DNA of 64,000 nucleotides, taken from assembly GCF_900299535.1 (NCBI RefSeq), contig NZ_OMKE01000006.1:1-64000 (forward strand), read 5' to 3'. Positions 26,743 to 35,669 of this stretch are shown here, piece by piece. The notes under the pieces are model-generated. The model did not search any database and had not been told where the DNA came from. It saw only the letters and a list, made by a program, of their open reading frames with translations. A program made the position numbers and the translations under genes. Positions within the stretch are counted from its first letter, which is position 1; each line of letters opens with the position of its first letter. Origin of the DNA: Aquimarina aquimarini (GTDB lineage: Bacteria; Bacteroidota; Bacteroidia; Flavobacteriales; Flavobacteriaceae).

Positions 26743-29700
26743 TTAGTTACCAAAATTATATCTCAATGTAAATCCTCCTCTTATAGTTGTCTGTGGGAAC
26801 GCTGTAGAAATAGAATACTCAGAAAAAGTATGATCATAAAAGAACAATGCTGTCAAGTTCTTACTTAATGAATAATCTGCGGTAAACTTTATCCCATAGA
26901 TATCTTGCCCTGCTGTTATTTGGGTGTTCTCCAAGTCAAGATACCTGATTAACGTTTCATTCTGTCGTAGAGATAAATCTGCTCTAAAATTTAGATCACT
27001 TTTCAGTACTTTCTTCCTTCCTCCAATCTTAGTTGCAAAAGTAAGGTCCTTTAACCTATAACCAAGTCCTATTATATATTCATTACCTTGTATTTCGGTA
27101 AGTAAATTATTATCAAAACTCAATGATAACGCTCGATCTTTTTTCCATTCAGCTAGAATTTTTATTGAGTTTTTCATTTCCATATCCAAACGTACAAGAG
27201 GACTAAACTGCTCTGTTAAGTTTACATTAGCAAATAACAAAGGATTCTTAAAGTTACCTCCTTCATCAAACTCACTGTTTTTACCATATTCTAGATTGGT
27301 CTGAAACTGATTGATTGTATAATTAGCACGATATCCATGAGCTACAGAGAATCTTTTGAAACGTTTTTTAAACCATTTCACTCTCATCAACCCTGTATAT
27401 TTTATATCCCAATTTGGCAAAGGAATATCTCTGAATGCTCCTTTTTGAACCTTTTCTGCATCCCCTCCAGAATATGCTGCTAAAAAGGCTGGTAATAGTA
27501 CTGCCTGATTTGTTTTACCATATCCTATAGGAAAACCATCTTGATCTGTGTCATTAGGGTTTTTATTATTATCAATTGCCAAACGCCTTGCTACAGTAAG
27601 CCTGTTCTCTCTAAACTTATCAAAAGCTTCTGACGAGAACATATCGCTTTTCTTAAACGCTGTTTTTATAAGTAATGTTGATATAGTAAAATTACCAAAG
27701 GTATTTCCTGTAAGAGATTCATATGGATCGTCTACATTTATATTCCCTTGACCATCTGTATTTACATTATAATTTTCTGTATATGTCTCAGATGAATTTC
27801 TTGTTGCACTAATATCTATTTTAAGATCTTTGAGTAATCCTACGGTAGCCTGTACATTAAGTTGTTTCCCTATAACTTCTTGATATTGTTGATTAAACTC
27901 ATCATACAAAGTAAGCCATCCGTTACGTGCAGCAAGATGCCTAATATCTGACTGACTCCCAAAGGTAAATCCTAAAGTAGGTTTTAATGTACCTACAAAA
28001 CCAGGTTCCCTAAGATATCCTGGTAGAAAAATCCCGTTATCTTGTTGATAATTTACATTTACCTTTTTTACCGCTGTAACCAGCCCAATAAGTGTATTAT
28101 ATGCTTTATCGCCTGCACTTAATTTACTTTTACCTCTTTTCTTTTTACTCTTAGCGTTATTTTTGGGTTGTACTCCTGCTACTCCTTTGGTCTCTTTTAA
28201 TCCTTTGTTTTTACCCTTCTTTCTACCTGGTTTTATTTTGGTCAACCCTGCATATTTATACAGTGTATTCATATCCAACGATCCATTGAGTGTATGAACA
28301 CTCGCATTCTGAACAGAGTTTCCTAAATCAGGAATCCCTTCTAAGGTTTTCAAAGCTTCACTACCTTTTATCCATTGAAAATCTGCATTGTATGAATAAG
28401 TAGCTCTCATAAATTTTAATACAGGCACTTTCTTAAAAGGCACTTCATAATTAACCTGTAATTGCTGACTATGCGTATTAGGGTCTCCTATATCAAAGAA
28501 ACCACTCCATATGTCTATTGTATTATCTACATTATTATTTTCATCAATAAAGTTTTTGACAATACGATTATTAGCAGATGTAAAAGCAAAGTTCAATGAC
28601 TTGGTCAAATTATAATTTATACCATATTGCCAATCATACAGAAAATTACGTTGATACAATACTGGTAAGATACTTCCTTCATCTAATGTAATATCTCTAA
28701 ATACTTGCTCATTATATCGTCTATTAATATTAGAATTTACAGAAACACTTGTAGGGAGAAGGTTTACGTTGAAATCTTTAATCAAATCAAAATACTTACT
28801 TTTTCCTAAGAATTTCACCTTCTTAAATGGTTCAATCTCTTTAGGCTGAAAACTAAAATCATATGTCCCTCCCAGTCTTACTGTTTGATCTAATGATTTT
28901 TCTATTTCAAAATCACGGTGGTCTGTTTGATTATAGGTTCCAGAAAATGTAAAATTCTCTACATCATAAGGCATCGGTTTTTTATCTCCTGTTCGTTCCT
29001 TACGCAAGCCTATCACATTAAAACTTTGTCTTTTTGTATAATCGGTTGATTGTTTTTCTACTCGTTCTTTTTCACTAGGGTCCGTTATATTATCCAAGCG
29101 ATCCTGAAGTTCTAAATCTTGAAATTCAGGGTCAAATTGTGGGGTAATCAATTCCTCTCCTCTACTGTAATTAAATGGTACTTGAACCCCCCATTTTTTA
29201 GGTAATAATTGTCCTAAATTTACATTGGTAGTCAAATCATATTGCTTAATATCCTCTCTACTACGTTCATTTGGTCCTTGTTCTATACCTCCAAATCCAA
29301 TAGTACTGATCCTTCCTGACGCACTAACGTTTGCAAAATCTGCAACATTAGCATCCAAACTACCTACAGCAGCCCATCCCCCTCTATTTTTTAAATCACT
29401 AAGACGCATCTCATTAAACCAAACTGTTCCAGATTGATTTGTAGTACTCTCATTTTTGACACCTATCATCATCACTCGTATGTCTCCAAAATTAGGATTA
29501 CCCTTGATTGCTAATCTTACGCTTCCAGGAGTCAGATTTGCAGATGGATTAGCATCAGGGTTTTCTCCATTAGCATCAAAAAACACCAGAGTATTAGCAT
29601 CAAAATTTGAAGACCCTAAAACTGCAGATTTAATTTTTTGTAATAAACTCAAATCCAAATTAAGTTTATTTGCAACTGGCCAAACATGATCCCTATTACT

Positions 29701-32700
29701 ATTATTGAGGTCAGAGACTTGTAATGGTATTTCTACTTGATAAAAATTATTTGTAAAATCATTACCCATTCTTACAAAAGCGGTAAGGTCTCCATCATTC
29801 AGCGTTCCATTTGGTATTGGCTCGGCATGCAAAAACAATTCTAGATTTTCATATTGACGCATATCAACATTAAAATTCTTATATACTCCACGAGAATCTT
29901 CTGATTGAAGATCATTTACAGTAAGGGCAAGAGAACGTTCATCTTCTCTAATAATATTGTTATTATTATTTAATTGTTCTCTCACAACTCCTGGTGGAGT
30001 ATTATAATTTGGAGTTTCTTCTTCACTTACAGAAGTTACTACCACCTCGCTATCACCAAATACATTGATACCACTAGTTGGGTCATTGGTTTGATTACCT
30101 TCTACAACATACCTTCTGTAATCTCCTCGCACCAAATCCATATTTGCAAATCGCAATAAAACAGGTTGAGAAAAATCAGTAAGATACATTCTCATAAATC
30201 GTATAGATCTAAAGTCACTAATGTTTATTGACTTGTCTGGGTCGTAGATAGGTATTTTAAATCGCACCCATTTGGTTCTTATTTCTTGTCCAGAAACTTC
30301 TATTGGTATATCTCTAACATCAGAGATATAACCTGTTCCTCCGTCATTACCAACACCCATCCCTTTAAAAACAGGAATCTCATACTCAAAATAACTATTA
30401 ATAGTATTCATTGTATTATCCCTATTTACATCTTCTGCTGTAGGAAATGTAGTATTTCCTCTATCTGTATTAGACACACTAGTAGGTGAATTTCCTTCTG
30501 TACCATTATAATCAGCATACCTTTGCAAAACGTCACCATCTGCCTGAAGAAAGTATCTATAATTATCTCCCGAAGGATCATCCAACGACTGGAAATCTGG
30601 AAACTTTTGTTTTTCATCTGCATCCCCTAGACCATCAAAACCTGCATCTTGTTGAACTCTTGCTTGCCCCTCTGAATCAAAAGCATAGATCAAAGATTGA
30701 TTTGCTGGCACTGTTGCATACTCTGTCTCTACGACATTTTCATTTTGCCCTGTTCCGTCTGGTAATCCATTCTCGTATTGTTTTCTACCATCTCTCAATA
30801 CATCTTCACTTATATTACCAAGGTTCATAACAATAGTTCCGCCTGGATTGTCTATATCATCATATTCAAAAGGATCCATCAACCAGAATTCTACAAATTC
30901 AACATTGGACTGCTCAAAATTTGTAGATGTCAATTGCCTTGTTATTCCTGCAAAATTATTTTTGGGATCAGGTTGCGAACCAGGGTTAGCTCCAGGAGCA
31001 TGTGCTGGATTAAAGTTATAAGGCCCTCTTGTTGTAGGATCATAATTTAAATCTAATGTAAACAACGCTAGTGATTGGCCTTGTACAATATCTGTATCAG
31101 GAAAAACCTCACTAATAAATACTCTTCTGGTAGCATTAGATGCTAAATCCTGTTCCGTAACCCCGCTTGGTCGTCCGTTACTATAAAAAACAGGATCTAT
31201 AGAATACCAGGCTAGTTTTGCTCGCCTATACCCTGACTTCAATCCTTCGACCATATTGTCACTCGTAGGGTTATCAGGGTCTCCAAACCCTATAGGAATA
31301 CTAGAAAGCTCCCAAGAAAGAGGTGAACTCACATCTATTCTTGTTTGCGCTCCTTCAAAATCATCTATATAAGTAGTTACTTTTCCATCAAAATCTGCTC
31401 CTTTAGGCGCTCCTGCAATAAGATATGCTCCTTCTGCTCTAATAGATACATTAGACGGCACATCTGTATCTATATTAGGTAATTTATTAGCCATTCTGGT
31501 CAAGAGAGGAACTTCAGTCGCATAGGCTACATTAAATCCAAGTATCGTATTATTAATTGGCTCAAAACTGTAGTTAGACTTTTGAGTTATTGGTCTTTCA
31601 TTAAGATTCAAAAAGGTACCACCCACTATAAAATCATCACTAAACTTATGCTCAATATTAACTCCTGTAAATCTTTTGGTTTGTTGACCAAACACAGCAT
31701 TATTCTCTGTAGAGACTTGTATAGGTGTATTTGATGATAATAACGCATCATCTAGAATACTCACTCTCCCCAATTGATAGTTTACTGTATAATCAACTCC
31801 TTCTTGCAGTACTCTACCTCCTGCGGTAACGGTTACTGATCCTTGAGGCACATTGAATGCTCCCAAAGGAATTCCATCTTGTCCTGATGATTTATAACGC
31901 CCTTTTAACTGGAACTTATTTTTATCTGCTGATCTTTGCTCTGCTACAACTTTGGTTTGATTATACAGGTCTTGAAATACATATTTTGCCTGATTGGCAT
32001 TATAAGTACTTGGATCAGTATAATTCGCCCCTGCTGGCCCATTATCTAGTTTATCAAAAAGGTGTTCTCCAAAAGGCTCTACTGTGGTAAATATAATTCT
32101 TCCGTTTTGTGAGTCTACTGTAATGGGAGGGGTATGGACATAATCAAAAAACCCATCTCCTCCTTGTACGGGATCTCCATTAGGGTTAAGACGATCAAGA
32201 TTAAATACCTTTAATAAGGTTGTTTGTTCTACATCTGCTGGCAATGGTACCGAAGAGCCTTCTGCTGTAGTAATATAATTTACAGGTGAAGGGTCTACAT
32301 ATAGTATATTTAATCTAAAATCACTTTGTTCTAATCTAAATGCACCTGTACTATAGATGTTTTTCATCATCAAGTCCCAAATTGGCAAATCCACATTAGT
32401 AATAGGACTTTTAATCATTTTTACAATCAAACTCTGACTTGCTCCTACATCTACATTTGTATTTCCTGTCGTATCTCCTATAGTAGCATCAACTCCTCCA
32501 TTTGCAAATTCACCTACTTGAAAAACTTCTCCTCCTACGGTATACTGAAATGCTACCCCCAGAACTTCATCATTATTCAATCGTTGGTTTAGTGATATAT
32601 ATCCTAATTCTTGGTTAATCGTATATTCACTCTCATTTAATTTTCTTGCATTTTCTAAGATTGCATAATCAAACCCCTCATTAAACCCTGCTATAGGACC

Positions 32701-33945
32701 AATAAAACCTTGCTGCACAGTAGACACTTGTCTTATTGCTTCTGTGATCGGACCTCCAGGTCCAATTTCTGTTGGATCTAGGTCATTATTTGCATTTTTA
32801 GGAAATGCTTTCGAGTCTGTTGTATTAAACAAAGAGGCTGGAATTGTAAAATTACCAGCACTAGGAGCTTCTCCTATATCTTGAAGCGCCACAATATTAC
32901 GTGCATTTGTAAGCGTTTGAGCACTTGTTGCTCTATTGGTTACCCACACTTCTATTCTTGTAATCTGAATTCCTCTATTATTAATAAAAGGATAGTTTTT
33001 TAATGAAGCATTATACGTATCTCTAAAATAATGTGATAAAAAGAAGTGCCTATTCTCATCATAATTTGATGCAAAGAGTTCAAAATCTTCTACTGTACCG
33101 CCTCCTTCTACATTAACTGATCTTGTTTCTGATCGCTGTTCTGAGTATACTCCTGTTACTGTTGTCTTACCAAACTGTAATCCCATCTTTACTCCAAACA
33201 AGCTTTGTGCTCCTTGTATCAAGGAACTATTAAGAGGCATACTCACATTACCTACTTCTATACTTTGAATGATATCGTCTTCTGTTGGGGTGTATTCTAA
33301 CTTTAATTGATCTTGAAAATCAAAAGTGGCTTCTGTATCGTAATTTGCTGTCACCTTAAGCCTTGTTCCAATTTTTCCTAATAAGCTTAAACTTATTCTC
33401 TGATCAAAATCGAATGTAAAATTACTTCGGTTTCTTGGTGAAAAAGCGGGGTTGTCTTGCTTGGTATATAATAATCCCAGATCCATTTCTACAGAACCTT
33501 GTGGTATAATCTCTATTTCACTTCCTCCAAAAATAGATTCAAAAAAGTTAGAATTGACATAAAAAATAGGAAGTAAATTCTTCCTTTTTTCTTCACTTCC
33601 ATCTTTTTTACCACTAAAAGCTTCCATCTTTTCTTTAAAATAAGCTCTTTGCTGTTCTTCTTCTACCATCGCTACATATTCTGATGGTGTTAAAAAGAGT
33701 GGATATCTTACATTAAAATCACCTAGCATCTCTCTATAAATATACCTATTTGTTATTGGGTCATATTCATATTTGGTTACAATACTATTTGGGTCTGGCA
33801 ATGAGAGTTGCCCCCAAGAAAAGGTGGTACTTGTAGAATCTCGAACAGTTTCATTCTCTTGACCGTGTAAAACCCCACCGTAAAGTATCGTGAAACATAC
33901 TAATATTCTAAAAAAATCAAAACGAAAGTGATTAGACAAACTCAA
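26743..33945 (-). CDS. sprA: T9SS outer-membrane translocon protein SprA (Sov)
   Basis: 2400 residues, the expected giant size of the family. Signal peptide about 1-28 (FFRILVCFTILYGGVLHGQ). It forms the single-chain outer-membrane barrel through which T9SS cargo such as gliding adhesins and sorting-domain enzymes leave the cell. Sequence signs: repeated outer-membrane strands with aromatic ends, SprA-type segments such as EYTPTEDDIIQSIEVGNVSMPLNS and VKMGLQFGKTTVTGVYSEQRS, and a C-terminal barrel strand IRGGFTLRYNFGN. The start codon is TTG at 33945, 4 bp after the ruvA stop; there is no in-frame ATG near it. Co-transcribed with ruvA. A Lys/Gly/Arg-rich loop near residues 1890-1940 is unusually basic. 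Confidence 0.95.
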   Translation of the reverse strand: MSLSNHFRFDFFRILVCFTILYGGVLHGQENETVRDSTSTTFSWGQLSLPDPNSIVTKYEYDPITNRYIYREMLGDFNVRYPLFLTPSEYVAMVEEEQQRAYFKEKMEAFSGKKDGSEEKRKNLLPIFYVNSNFFESIFGGSEIEIIPQGSVEMDLGLLYTKQDNPAFSPRNRSNFTFDFDQRISLSLLGKIGTRLKVTANYDTEATFDFQDQLKLEYTPTEDDIIQSIEVGNVSMPLNSSLIQGAQSLFGVKMGLQFGKTTVTGVYSEQRSETRSVNVEGGGTVEDFELFASNYDENRHFFLSHYFRDTYNASLKNYPFINNRGIQITRIEVWVTNRATSAQTLTNARNIVALQDIGEAPSAGNFTIPASLFNTTDSKAFPKNANNDLDPTEIGPGGPITEAIRQVSTVQQGFIGPIAGFNEGFDYAILENARKLNESEYTINQELGYISLNQRLNNDEVLGVAFQYTVGGEVFQVGEFANGGVDATIGDTTGNTNVDVGASQSLIVKMIKSPITNVDLPIWDLMMKNIYSTGAFRLEQSDFRLNILYVDPSPVNYITTAEGSSVPLPADVEQTTLLKVFNLDRLNPNGDPVQGGDGFFDYVHTPPITVDSQNGRIIFTTVEPFGEHLFDKLDNGPAGANYTDPSTYNANQAKYVFQDLYNQTKVVAEQRSADKNKFQLKGRYKSSGQDGIPLGAFNVPQGSVTVTAGGRVLQEGVDYTVNYQLGRVSILDDALLSSNTPIQVSTENNAVFGQQTKRFTGVNIEHKFSDDFIVGGTFLNLNERPITQKSNYSFEPINNTILGFNVAYATEVPLLTRMANKLPNIDTDVPSNVSIRAEGAYLIAGAPKGADFDGKVTTYIDDFEGAQTRIDVSSPLSWELSSIPIGFGDPDNPTSDNMVEGLKSGYRRAKLAWYSIDPVFYSNGRPSGVTEQDLASNATRRVFISEVFPDTDIVQGQSLALFTLDLNYDPTTRGPYNFNPAHAPGANPGSQPDPKNNFAGITRQLTSTNFEQSNVEFVEFWLMDPFEYDDIDNPGGTIVMNLGNISEDVLRDGRKQYENGLPDGTGQNENVVETEYATVPANQSLIYAFDSEGQARVQQDAGFDGLGDADEKQKFPDFQSLDDPSGDNYRYFLQADGDVLQRYADYNGTEGNSPTSVSNTDRGNTTFPTAEDVNRDNTMNTINSYFEYEIPVFKGMGVGNDGGTGYISDVRDIPIEVSGQEIRTKWVRFKIPIYDPDKSINISDFRSIRFMRMYLTDFSQPVLLRFANMDLVRGDYRRYVVEGNQTNDPTSGINVFGDSEVVVTSVSEEETPNYNTPPGVVREQLNNNNNIIREDERSLALTVNDLQSEDSRGVYKNFNVDMRQYENLELFLHAEPIPNGTLNDGDLTAFVRMGNDFTNNFYQVEIPLQVSDLNNSNRDHVWPVANKLNLDLSLLQKIKSAVLGSSNFDANTLVFFDANGENPDANPSANLTPGSVRLAIKGNPNFGDIRVMMIGVKNESTTNQSGTVWFNEMRLSDLKNRGGWAAVGSLDANVADFANVSASGRISTIGFGGIEQGPNERSREDIKQYDLTTNVNLGQLLPKKWGVQVPFNYSRGEELITPQFDPEFQDLELQDRLDNITDPSEKERVEKQSTDYTKRQSFNVIGLRKERTGDKKPMPYDVENFTFSGTYNQTDHRDFEIEKSLDQTVRLGGTYDFSFQPKEIEPFKKVKFLGKSKYFDLIKDFNVNLLPTSVSVNSNINRRYNEQVFRDITLDEGSILPVLYQRNFLYDWQYGINYNLTKSLNFAFTSANNRIVKNFIDENNNVDNTIDIWSGFFDIGDPNTHSQQLQVNYEVPFKKVPVLKFMRATYSYNADFQWIKGSEALKTLEGIPDLGNSVQNASVHTLNGSLDMNTLYKYAGLTKIKPGRKKGKNKGLKETKGVAGVQPKNNAKSKKKRGKSKLSAGDKAYNTLIGLVTAVKKVNVNYQQDNGIFLPGYLREPGFVGTLKPTLGFTFGSQSDIRHLAARNGWLTLYDEFNQQYQEVIGKQLNVQATVGLLKDLKIDISATRNSSETYTENYNVNTDGQGNINVDDPYESLTGNTFGNFTISTLLIKTAFKKSDMFSSEAFDKFRENRLTVARRLAIDNNKNPNDTDQDGFPIGYGKTNQAVLLPAFLAAYSGGDAEKVQKGAFRDIPLPNWDIKYTGLMRVKWFKKRFKRFSVAHGYRANYTINQFQTNLEYGKNSEFDEGGNFKNPLLFANVNLTEQFSPLVRLDMEMKNSIKILAEWKKDRALSLSFDNNLLTEIQGNEYIIGLGYRLKDLTFATKIGGRKKVLKSDLNFRADLSLRQNETLIRYLDLENTQITAGQDIYGIKFTADYSLSKNLTALFFYDHTFSEYSISTAFPQTTIRGGFTLRYNFGN

Positions 33946-33949
33946 TGCT

Positions 33950-34531
33950 TTATAAATTTTTCAGTGCTTGTTTAATAATATTTTCTACTGTTTCTTTGGG
34001 GGTTACTTTTAGAACTCGATCAATAGCTTTTTCTGCAATCTTTCTATTAAATCCGAGAGTTTCTAAAGCAGATAACGCTTCATCTTTGTTAGTATTGCTT
34101 TGAGACACTGAAACTTCGTCGATATTATACACTTTAAGAATTTTATCTTTTAGATCAATGATAACACGCTGGGCTGTTTTGGCCCCGATACCTTTAATTG
34201 ATTGAATGGTAGCTACATCATTGGTAGCTATCGCTTCTTTTACCTGATCGGGATGTAATGAAGATAACATTGTTCTTGCGGTACTAGCTCCTATTCCAGA
34301 AACTGAAATCAAAAGCCTGAAAATTTCTCTTTCAGATTTTTCTACAAAACCAAATAAGGTATGGGAATCTTCTTTAACCTGTAAATGCGTATATAGCTGT
34401 AATACTTCTTCTTCTGAAATCAAAGAAAATGTATGTAATGAGATATGTAATAAATATCCTACCCCATTACAATCTATTACGACATCAGTTGGATTTTTTT
34501 CTACAAGCCTCCCCTTGATATGTGTGATCAT
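33950..34531 (-). CDS. ruvA: Holliday junction branch migration protein RuvA
   Basis: 193 residues. OB-fold domain I (MITHIKGRLVEKNPTDVVIDCNGVGYLLHIS), two helix-hairpin-helix motifs (LLISVSGIGASTARTMLSSL and IQSIKGIGAKTAQRVIIDLKDK) and domain III at the C-terminus (LSALETLGFNRKIAEKAIDRVL), which contacts RuvB. It binds Holliday junctions as a tetramer. It lies directly ahead of sprA; ruvB is encoded separately at 41191-42213. Confidence 0.96.
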   Translation of the reverse strand: MITHIKGRLVEKNPTDVVIDCNGVGYLLHISLHTFSLISEEEVLQLYTHLQVKEDSHTLFGFVEKSEREIFRLLISVSGIGASTARTMLSSLHPDQVKEAIATNDVATIQSIKGIGAKTAQRVIIDLKDKILKVYNIDEVSVSQSNTNKDEALSALETLGFNRKIAEKAIDRVLKVTPKETVENIIKQALKNL

Positions 34532-34683: not shown

Positions 34684-35013
34684 TTAACAGCATGTACAAC
34701 AAACAACTGGAGGATTATACTTTATTACGATATTATGTTCCAAATTTGAGACCTTATGTCTCAACGTTGGGGTTCTTCTACCATATGATGGAGCGATTTT
34801 ACCTTCTGTTGGGTTAATTTGATGAAAATTTAGACTTAGGAGGCTCAATTTTAGAGTAACGAGTCCCAACGTTGGGACTTGATTGTCTAAAATTGGGTGG
34901 TTCTTCTCTAATTTTGGAAGGTGAAAGTCTAATTTTGAGACATCCGAGTCTAACGGAGCGTCTTTTTGGTGGACTGGAAGGTCTTTTTGAATAAAACCTT
35001 CTTTATACACCAA
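34684..35013 (-). CDS. Doubtful ORF made of 12 degenerate heptapeptide repeats
   Basis: 109 codons open on the minus strand, with no ATG: the first possible start is TTG 35013, followed by GTG, and it lies inside a long hairpin. The product is repetitive from residue 12 to 94 with a seven-residue period of the form x-P-x-L-x-x-x (LPKLEKN, HPILDNQ, VPTLGLV, TPTLRHK), ending in VVCCTCC. It may be a small repeat protein or merely the by-product of a 21-bp DNA repeat. I recall similar short Pro-Leu heptad ORFs in other Flavobacteriia but cannot verify that here. Function unknown. Confidence 0.3.
   Translation of the reverse strand: MVYKEGFIQKDLPVHQKDAPLDSDVSKLDFHLPKLEKNHPILDNQVPTLGLVTLKLSLLSLNFHQINPTEGKIAPSYGRRTPTLRHKVSNLEHNIVIKYNPPVVCCTCC
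34740..34991. repeat. Array of 12 degenerate 21-bp tandem repeats
   Basis: Units of exactly 21 bp start at 34740, 34761, 34782, 34803, 34824, 34845, 34866, 34887, 34908, 34929, 34950 and 34971. The best conserved part is the first ten bases, for example CCAAATTTGAG, TCAACGTTGG, CCAACGTTGGG, CTAAAATTGGG, CTAATTTTGGA, CTAATTTTGAG. The rest of each unit is variable. An 18-bp perfect palindrome (34862-34879, centre CCCAACGTTGGG) spans one unit junction. The period equals seven codons and also two turns of the DNA helix. Confidence 0.75.
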
Positions 35014-35051
35014 AACTACTTCAAAAGTAAGTTTTAATGTATAAAGAAGGT
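34996..35051 (-). terminator. Long near-perfect hairpin after the NMP kinase gene
   Basis: Perfect 14-bp arms at 34996-35009 (ACCTTCTTTATACA) and 35038-35051. The 28-nt interior also pairs (AAAACTACTT with AAGTAAGTTTT, one bulge), so the whole folds into a stem of about 24 bp with a 4-nt loop. On the minus strand TTTT follows. It lies 55 bp after the stop of the kinase gene and abuts the right end of the 21-bp repeat array. Terminator is the simplest reading. Confidence 0.6.
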
Positions 35052-35105: not shown

Positions 35106-35669
35106 CTACAAACTAGCTTTTATTCGTTTAGTTATTTCCTCAATTGTTCCAAGTCCGTCAAAAGTCAAAACTTTGATTTTCGATTTCATATATTCAACAG
35201 CAGGTCTTGTTGATTCTTCAAACACCTCGATTCTTTTTGTATGAATTTTAGGATCTTTATCATCTTTCCTATTCGAAGTCTCTGCTCTTTTTTTAGCTCT
35301 GATTAAAAGTTCAGGTTTTGGCACATCAATATTGAGTACTTTTCCAATTTTCATTTTTTTTGAGCACACAAGTTCAAGTAAATCATCTACTTGAGCTTTT
35401 GTTCTTGGATACCCATCTAATATTATCCCACTATTTGATTTATTTTCGTCTAGGATTTCACTAAAAAGATCTTTCATAATCGAGTCAGGAACCAAATCTC
35501 CTTTCTCCTCATATTCAGACATTATTTTTCCGATACCTGTCCCATTTTCCTTCTCAAGTCGACACCTATCTCCTGTAGAAATATGTTTAAAATTTAATTG
35601 TTTATTTAGAAGTTCGCATTGCGTTCCTTTACCAGAATAAGGAGGCCCTGTAATTATTAATATCTCCAT
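35106..35669 (-). CDS. Adenylate-kinase-like nucleoside monophosphate kinase
   Basis: 187 residues. P-loop GPPYSGKGTQ, NMP-binding segment HISTGDRCRLEKENGTGIGKIMSEYEEKGDLVPD, the GIILDGYPRTKAQVDDL motif and the Arg of the LID region, which is short (KDDKDPKIHTKRIEVFEESTRPAVEYM). This is the short-LID adenylate kinase type; cytoplasmic phosphoryl transfer between nucleotides is the likely reaction. It differs from the canonical adk signature in places (YSGKGTQ, RCRLEKENGT), so it may be an additional paralogue with another role. It sits between maeB and ruvA with a repeat array behind it. Confidence 0.85.
   Translation of the reverse strand: MEILIITGPPYSGKGTQCELLNKQLNFKHISTGDRCRLEKENGTGIGKIMSEYEEKGDLVPDSIMKDLFSEILDENKSNSGIILDGYPRTKAQVDDLLELVCSKKMKIGKVLNIDVPKPELLIRAKKRAETSNRKDDKDPKIHTKRIEVFEESTRPAVEYMKSKIKVLTFDGLGTIEEITKRIKASL

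Follow-up and report, generated by a model that had tools for sequence, protein, structure and literature searches.

The array of twelve 21-bp units at 34740–34991 of the window (the 64,000-nucleotide stretch of Aquimarina aquimarini DNA analysed here) is one copy, copy A, of an element which, to judge from sequence comparison, is non-coding DNA dispersed through the genome, and some other copies of which adjoin a gene of a protein family that we call F1. We lean somewhat towards a system extending through the phylum Bacteroidota, in which F1 is accompanied by a cognate array of roughly twelve 21-bp units, its letters specific to the lineage and its period kept, which would seed non-coding copies at the 3' ends of genes. 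An earlier note, made from the sequence of the window alone, had proposed the array as an undescribed element. This is supported, and the scale exceeds what that note had in mind because an F1 gene is linked; the open-licence PMC literature yielded no account of this element or of a linked array, the F1 family having no name to search by. If our reading is true, it adds a new protein family and a new repeat class to the few systems in which a gene has its own dispersed extragenic repeat, with a partner protein unrelated to known transposases, and an exact two-turn period kept through sequence turnover would be an unusual constraint.

Copy A is recognised by its period, its column information and its homologous copies in the same genome. 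Its period-21 self-match of 0.515 (119/231 positions) is the top period-21 score of the window (252-bp windows, step 21), and its column information is 14.4 bits versus 5.5 +/- 0.74 in 5000 shuffles (maximum 9.0), about 12 SD above; the twelve in-phase units described in the earlier note are therefore real. When the units are started at 34741, columns 2, 3 and 7 are identical in 10/12 units and columns 11–19 in at most 7/12, which bears out a conserved head followed by a variable rest. There is no conspicuous 7-bp sub-period. The degeneracy of the array keeps it out of the output of Tandem Repeats Finder at score 30.

The last two units (34950–34991, plus strand; CTAACGGAGCGTCTTTTTGG...GGTCTTTTT) form a right landmark which is conserved among copies. 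Two further units (34782–34823, plus strand) form the left landmark, which in aligned copies reads as an inverted relative of the right one. Between the landmarks lies an imperfect palindrome of about 50 bp (34846–34895) centred on one unit head, with complementary linkers on both sides of that head; it was identified from a minus-strand self-match of 84% and from its palindrome score against unit-permuted controls. To the left of the array is ruvA (33950–34531, minus strand), identified by its RuvA domains, and beyond it a 2400-aa ORF (26743–33945, minus strand) which we take to resemble the type IX secretion translocon SprA. To the right an adenylate-kinase-like gene (35106–35669, minus strand; PF00406, E 2e-35) points its 3' end toward the right end of the array; its best NCBIfam match, at 168.5 bits, is under the model cut-off of 187. 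A long near-perfect hairpin (34996–35051), found by inverted self-match and folding, lies between this gene and the array and is possibly a terminator. It is absent from the aligned copies B–E, and in other copies the element does not include it. The window array is itself one of the dispersed copies and has no F1 of its own.

The minus-strand frame at 34684–35013 to which the earlier note drew attention is present, with 109 codons and a TTG start, and reads as heptads; we judge it spurious. That the frame is open throughout in the window, and that three of five copies in this genome have no stop in the corresponding match, would suit a gene for a heptad-repeat protein. The pattern of differences does not. 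Among the five copies variable columns number 35/31/33 by codon position and range from 0 to 9 by unit position, and over 58 array pairs the differences number 1032/1001/1050 by codon position and from 33 to 238 by unit position (the counts by codon position, and those of dyads, exclude the arrays with indels, namely L165, L171, L194 and L195). The check for codon-level conservation proposed in the note thus gave differences independent of codon position. Moreover only 5/41 non-redundant arrays are open in any of the six frames, and the 109-aa translation matched nothing in Pfam at E<=1 or in NCBIfam at E<=0.01. With a flat codon pattern and closed frames in most arrays we rejected the protein gene, which we now regard as scarcely credible. 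Some predicted “heptad” hypothetical proteins in these genomes may likewise be arrays of this kind and not genes.

Seven further copies were found in the same genome, none of them within the earlier note's view: four (B–E) at 76–79% DNA identity to the window array and three more divergent. The window array and these four copies are 73–95% identical pairwise over a 251-bp block without internal gap. A sequence-only model, R1, was built from 23 copies aligned with MAFFT with no gap inside their common 189-bp core (in alignment A4 of these copies rows L004 and L005 start one unit early). R1 found eight strong places in this genome, the window array among them, and matches at E<=0.01 in 36/52 genomes of the genus. 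A degenerate pattern of the end landmarks returned 14 stretches, 13 from Aquimarina and one from a Bacteroidia MAG, and array DNA queried against a plasmid collection gave one short, chance-like match. In a sample of Flavobacteriaceae outside the genus, R1 hits at 1e-5 occurred in 3/298 genomes and were all 7-bp repeats, detected by the 21-bp model since 21 is 3 x 7. These loci (L203, L204 and L205) hold intergenic 7-bp tandem arrays of TTGAATC- and CAAACTT-like units.

The layout of the element is a left landmark (about CTTCTGTTGGGTCTTTTTGATGAAAATTTAGAC), the unit of which has a variable head in some copies, followed by units that vary and finally by a right landmark (about CTAACGGAACGTCTTTTTGACCCATCAGAAGGTCT). 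In the 23 copies of the initial comparison the distance from the start of the left landmark unit to that of the last unit is 168 bp. Measured over the stretch that aligns to the model, 42/46 copies from 14 genomes of the genus have no net indel (loci L090–L103, of which many duplicate stretches of G-handle loci, and matches below 50 bits were left out). The other four have net indels of -21, +21, +1 and -20, two of these being exactly one unit. Decay, as the earlier note had framed it, predicted indels that are not multiples of 21, and such net indels were seen in 2/46 copies. That the array is a decaying minisatellite, associated with its neighbours by chance, is a very improbable explanation; the high divergence of units from each other and the extra tandem units or arrays in some copies (L171, L178 and L182) would fit it, but the constant spacing of the landmarks, the scarcity of net indels and the association with F1 do not. 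At the 3' end of a gene which we presume to be tRNA methyltransferase-like (cluster F7 of the genes beside arrays) an array is kept in three species with a core identity of 0.65–0.67. These orthologous arrays are no more alike than non-orthologous arrays of the class (average 0.67), so that the architecture was kept there and the sequence was not.

The genes which flank 40 non-redundant arrays are in tandem in 28 cases, convergent in 10 and divergent in 2, whereas 99 background gaps include 24 divergent and 8 convergent ones. The same tendency appears in F1-free arrays, a set of 27 obtained from 47 array rows by leaving out six near-duplicates (41 remaining) and then 14 that were F1-linked, contained an F1 fragment or were tandem; L100 was classed as F1-linked from reading its flank, with no search. 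Among these 27, convergent gaps are enriched (9/27 vs 8/99, p=0.002), divergent gaps depleted (2/27, p=0.06) and the orientation bias marginal (19/27, p=0.052). The earlier note had also asked whether relatives lack the array. At ruvA they appear to, since blastn with 1.5-kb flanks saw none in 29 congeneric loci (L053 being partial, and divergent arrays being able to escape detection), but many congeners have arrays elsewhere.

When the genes beside arrays are clustered, F1 is the leading recurrent family. It lies at the right end of the array, and in F1-linked copies the gene adjoins the right-landmark end. The F1 gene of this genome (G000:C45:12423-12905) is outside the window and adjoins copy B. 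Of 52 Aquimarina genomes, 15 contain close F1 (E<1e-60) and 15 contain arrays (E<1e-12), with both present in 14 (Fisher 1.2e-10, a statistic which ignores phylogeny). The exceptions are G025 and, at a looser cut-off, G024, where an array is accompanied by a distant F1 only, and G072, which has a close F1 and a weak array. Downstream of distant Aquimarina F1 genes (25–37% identity) there is often DNA of period 21 too, though its sequence is a different one: in 600-bp windows, period 21 was the top of 28 periods tested after 18/22 close and 10/14 distant F1 genes of the genus.

F1 is a protein of about 160 residues with long helices, one of them of 55 residues, and AlphaFold2 gave two models with mean pLDDT of 75.9 and 88.8. 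In most members acidic residues are about equal to or above basic ones. The alignments contain no invariant histidine and therefore no HUH motif. Fourteen members scanned against Pfam matched no family above cut-off; two proteins had no match at E<=0.1 to the anti-phage defence models of PADLOC; two members gave a single PHROG match (E 0.016); and one F1 protein queried against a phage collection found nothing. PDB sequences gave no match at E<=0.001 (best 0.013), nor did a Foldseek comparison of the models with PDB at the same threshold, and the best VIA-align Z score, 5.3 over 69 residues, is ordinary for helical models. No recognised DNA-binding fold was found in the models. In Aquimarina F1 often occurs with two or three small genes, one encoding an HTH protein; at L068 and other F1 loci these specify about 85, 72 and 90 residues, the last with the HTH. 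A TPR/HTH_18 gene lies nearby on the other strand, and at some loci there follow genes which we take to be VgrG-like, HlyD-like or ABC-exporter-like. No replication or partition gene was seen among the array neighbours scanned.

Outside Aquimarina the letters are replaced and at most loci the period remains. A distant F1 used as query found relatives in 19/345 Bacteroidota genomes and 13/155 genera, its own genus included, and F1 proteins of other genera range down to 24% identity. At F1 loci of other genera period 21 is top downstream of the gene in 18/27, from 11 genera. In another 4/27 it is found upstream only, among them L239 whose value of 0.408 is weak and on par with control values; the top period is 22 in 2/27; and no array is present in 3/27 (L260 was too short to score). 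Control counts downstream of other ORFs were 26/303 at the Aquimarina loci and 13/123 at the phylum loci (Fisher 1.1e-11 and 4.9e-9), and for random windows 35/436. The array letters beside distant F1 genes differ wholly, as TACCCGGGTAGGTTCGGAAGG, CAAAATTTTAACTACCCATAC and GAACCAGTTCAGTTCCGACTT illustrate, and the other genes around phylum F1 loci are mostly different at each locus; the HTH gene was not seen as a recurrent F1 neighbour outside Aquimarina. Of 24 arrays that adjoin F1 genes beyond the close Aquimarina group, 5 have a significant dyad and 7 have at least one open frame, and therefore neither dyads nor closed frames are universal. Genome G527 has a second array elsewhere, 79% identical to the F1-adjacent one. 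At L285–L288 and further places in G527 a short GC-rich end sequence of the array query recurs, often as inverted pairs about 100–500 bp apart. The array of G489 matched only its own locus in its own genome; against five other F1-bearing genomes it had no match in four and three short weak ones in G451. The plasmid collection held one F1 relative, WP_100922920.1 (annotated hypothetical), on plasmid pTs417 of the gammaproteobacterium Thiodictyon (L289:2914-3381), with no period-21 DNA after the gene.

Unit heads have the palindromic form YYRAAnnTTYRR with an AT core, and in most arrays they belong to the classes TCYAA..TTGRG and TTRAA..TTYAA. The best dyad axis is at the same place, within half a base, in 36/37 arrays, and the dyad is significant versus column permutation in 20/37. 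A/T tracts have a phase score of 0.862 at 10.5 bp, versus 0.53 at 10.25, 0.47 at 10.75 and 0.297 in shuffles, in part because of the 21-bp repeat itself. The idea of DNA spaced by two helical turns, also raised in the earlier note, is borne out as geometry only, by this phasing, by heads that are dyad-symmetric about one axis and by the lack of net indels in most copies. Its further remark that the array resembles a diversifying element holds for the linkers, which are the most variable part of the units, but not for unit number and end landmarks, which are nearly fixed.

Linkers which are perfectly complementary to one another within an array number 11, versus 3.06 expected and a maximum of 7 in 2000 permutations. 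This excess, the position of the array directly after the F1 stop and the palindromes, some 50 nt long or longer, that several arrays contain might indicate an element which acts as RNA. The array would be transcribed after F1 or another preceding gene, and head-head and linker-linker pairing would make it a scaffold or a 3'-UTR stability element which F1 may bind. On either strand the window region also has a better fold than its shuffled versions (z -5.4 and -6.1), the stretch folded including the hairpin outside the array. The consensus fold is weak, however (-8.2 kcal/mol), native linker order brings little gain (mean z -0.5 and -0.8) and linker pairs complementary at 6 of 9 positions show no excess (103 vs 99). 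G-T and A-C mismatches are about equally common in heads, so that there is no strand preference, and the orientation bias of F1-free arrays is, as noted, marginal. Searches for known structured RNA gave 12 Rfam matches at E<=5, none reaching the gathering score. We consider the RNA scaffold doubtful, and the main rival of the reading which we favour, that of a DNA element with two-turn geometry which is acted on by F1.

Two pairs of copies bear on how the element spreads. In this genome 407 bp are common, at 90%, to copy B, the one beside F1, and copy D. An uncultured Aquimarina has 655 bp in common, at 98.3%, between L091, which adjoins F1, and L103, which has no F1; this second segment includes a small HTH gene and the array and excludes F1. 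In both pairs the similarity ends between the array core and F1, and fragments of F1 persist beside two other arrays, L170 and L199. We infer that the dispersed copies were probably made from F1 loci. The same segments and fragments, together with inverted end landmarks and dispersed copies without F1, could be taken as signs of a selfish MITE-like repeat spread by a foreign transposase or by recombination, for which the link to F1 would be one of ancestry and not of function. We think this unlikely, as no target duplication is evident at the junctions of the two shared segments, the number of units is fixed, and throughout the phylum period 21 is kept beside F1 although the letters are unrelated, a constancy for which a passenger repeat would have no use.

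It is quite possible, and we hold it tentatively, that the array is one half of a two-part module of which F1 is the other half. In such a DNA module the F1-adjacent array would be the source of the dispersed copies. Because the period persists while the letters change, selection would appear to act on geometry, placing a site every two helical turns along the same face of curved DNA. F1 may assemble on the array, either by itself or together with a protein that binds DNA, for instance the small HTH protein encoded in the Aquimarina operon, and may contribute to the upkeep or spread of the array, a role also proposed for RAYT proteins with respect to REP elements. Against this module speak the composition of F1, as acidic as basic or more so in most members, and its want of a recognised DNA-binding fold; the F1 loci without an array, among them that of the Thiodictyon plasmid; the confinement of the G489 array to its own locus; the low share of significant dyads, and the open frames, beyond the close Aquimarina group; the HTH gene not recurring outside Aquimarina; the orthologous arrays being no more alike than others; and the lack of an evident target duplication.

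Iteron and centromere arrays also consist of sites spaced by helical turns beside a gene for a small protein, and are bound by the partner protein. Unlike these, the element of the window is chromosomal and has many copies near the 3' ends of genes. The heptameric repeats of Beggiatoaceae (TAACTGA), as far as the accessible part of PMC4679880 describes them, are likewise intergenic direct repeats in many sets, but their units are of seven bases, a sub-period which does not stand out here. BrickBuilt of Porphyromonas gingivalis, a MITE holding a 23-nt minisatellite, is, in the portions of PMC4596501 available, a dispersed, non-coding intergenic tandem array with leader and tail, and also from the Bacteroidota. 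It differs in its 23-nt units, in their number (1 to 22.8 per element), in low divergence within an element and in inverted ends which resemble insertion sequences, and no partner protein gene was found described in those portions. BrickBuilt thus resembles the array only, and not the partnership of gene and array.

The closest parallel in arrangement is the REPtron, in which, according to the available sections of PMC3733652, a protein gene adjoins a palindromic repeat, and copies of that repeat are dispersed between genes, the majority of them downstream of a gene and in gaps flanked by tandem or convergent genes. The DNA module which we favour differs from it, within what those sections cover, in both parts. 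F1 is a long-helix protein without the HUH motif whereas RAYT is a tyrosine transposase, and on the DNA side about twelve 21-bp units stand in phase whereas REP is a single 20–40-bp hairpin with a GTAG or CGTC tag, a tag absent from the consensus of our 23 aligned copies. As in REPtrons, a gene is joined to repeat copies near gene 3' ends, with few in divergent gaps (2/40 vs 24/99), and from these comparisons of sequence we read the module as probably arranged like the REP/RAYT system, with an unrelated protein.
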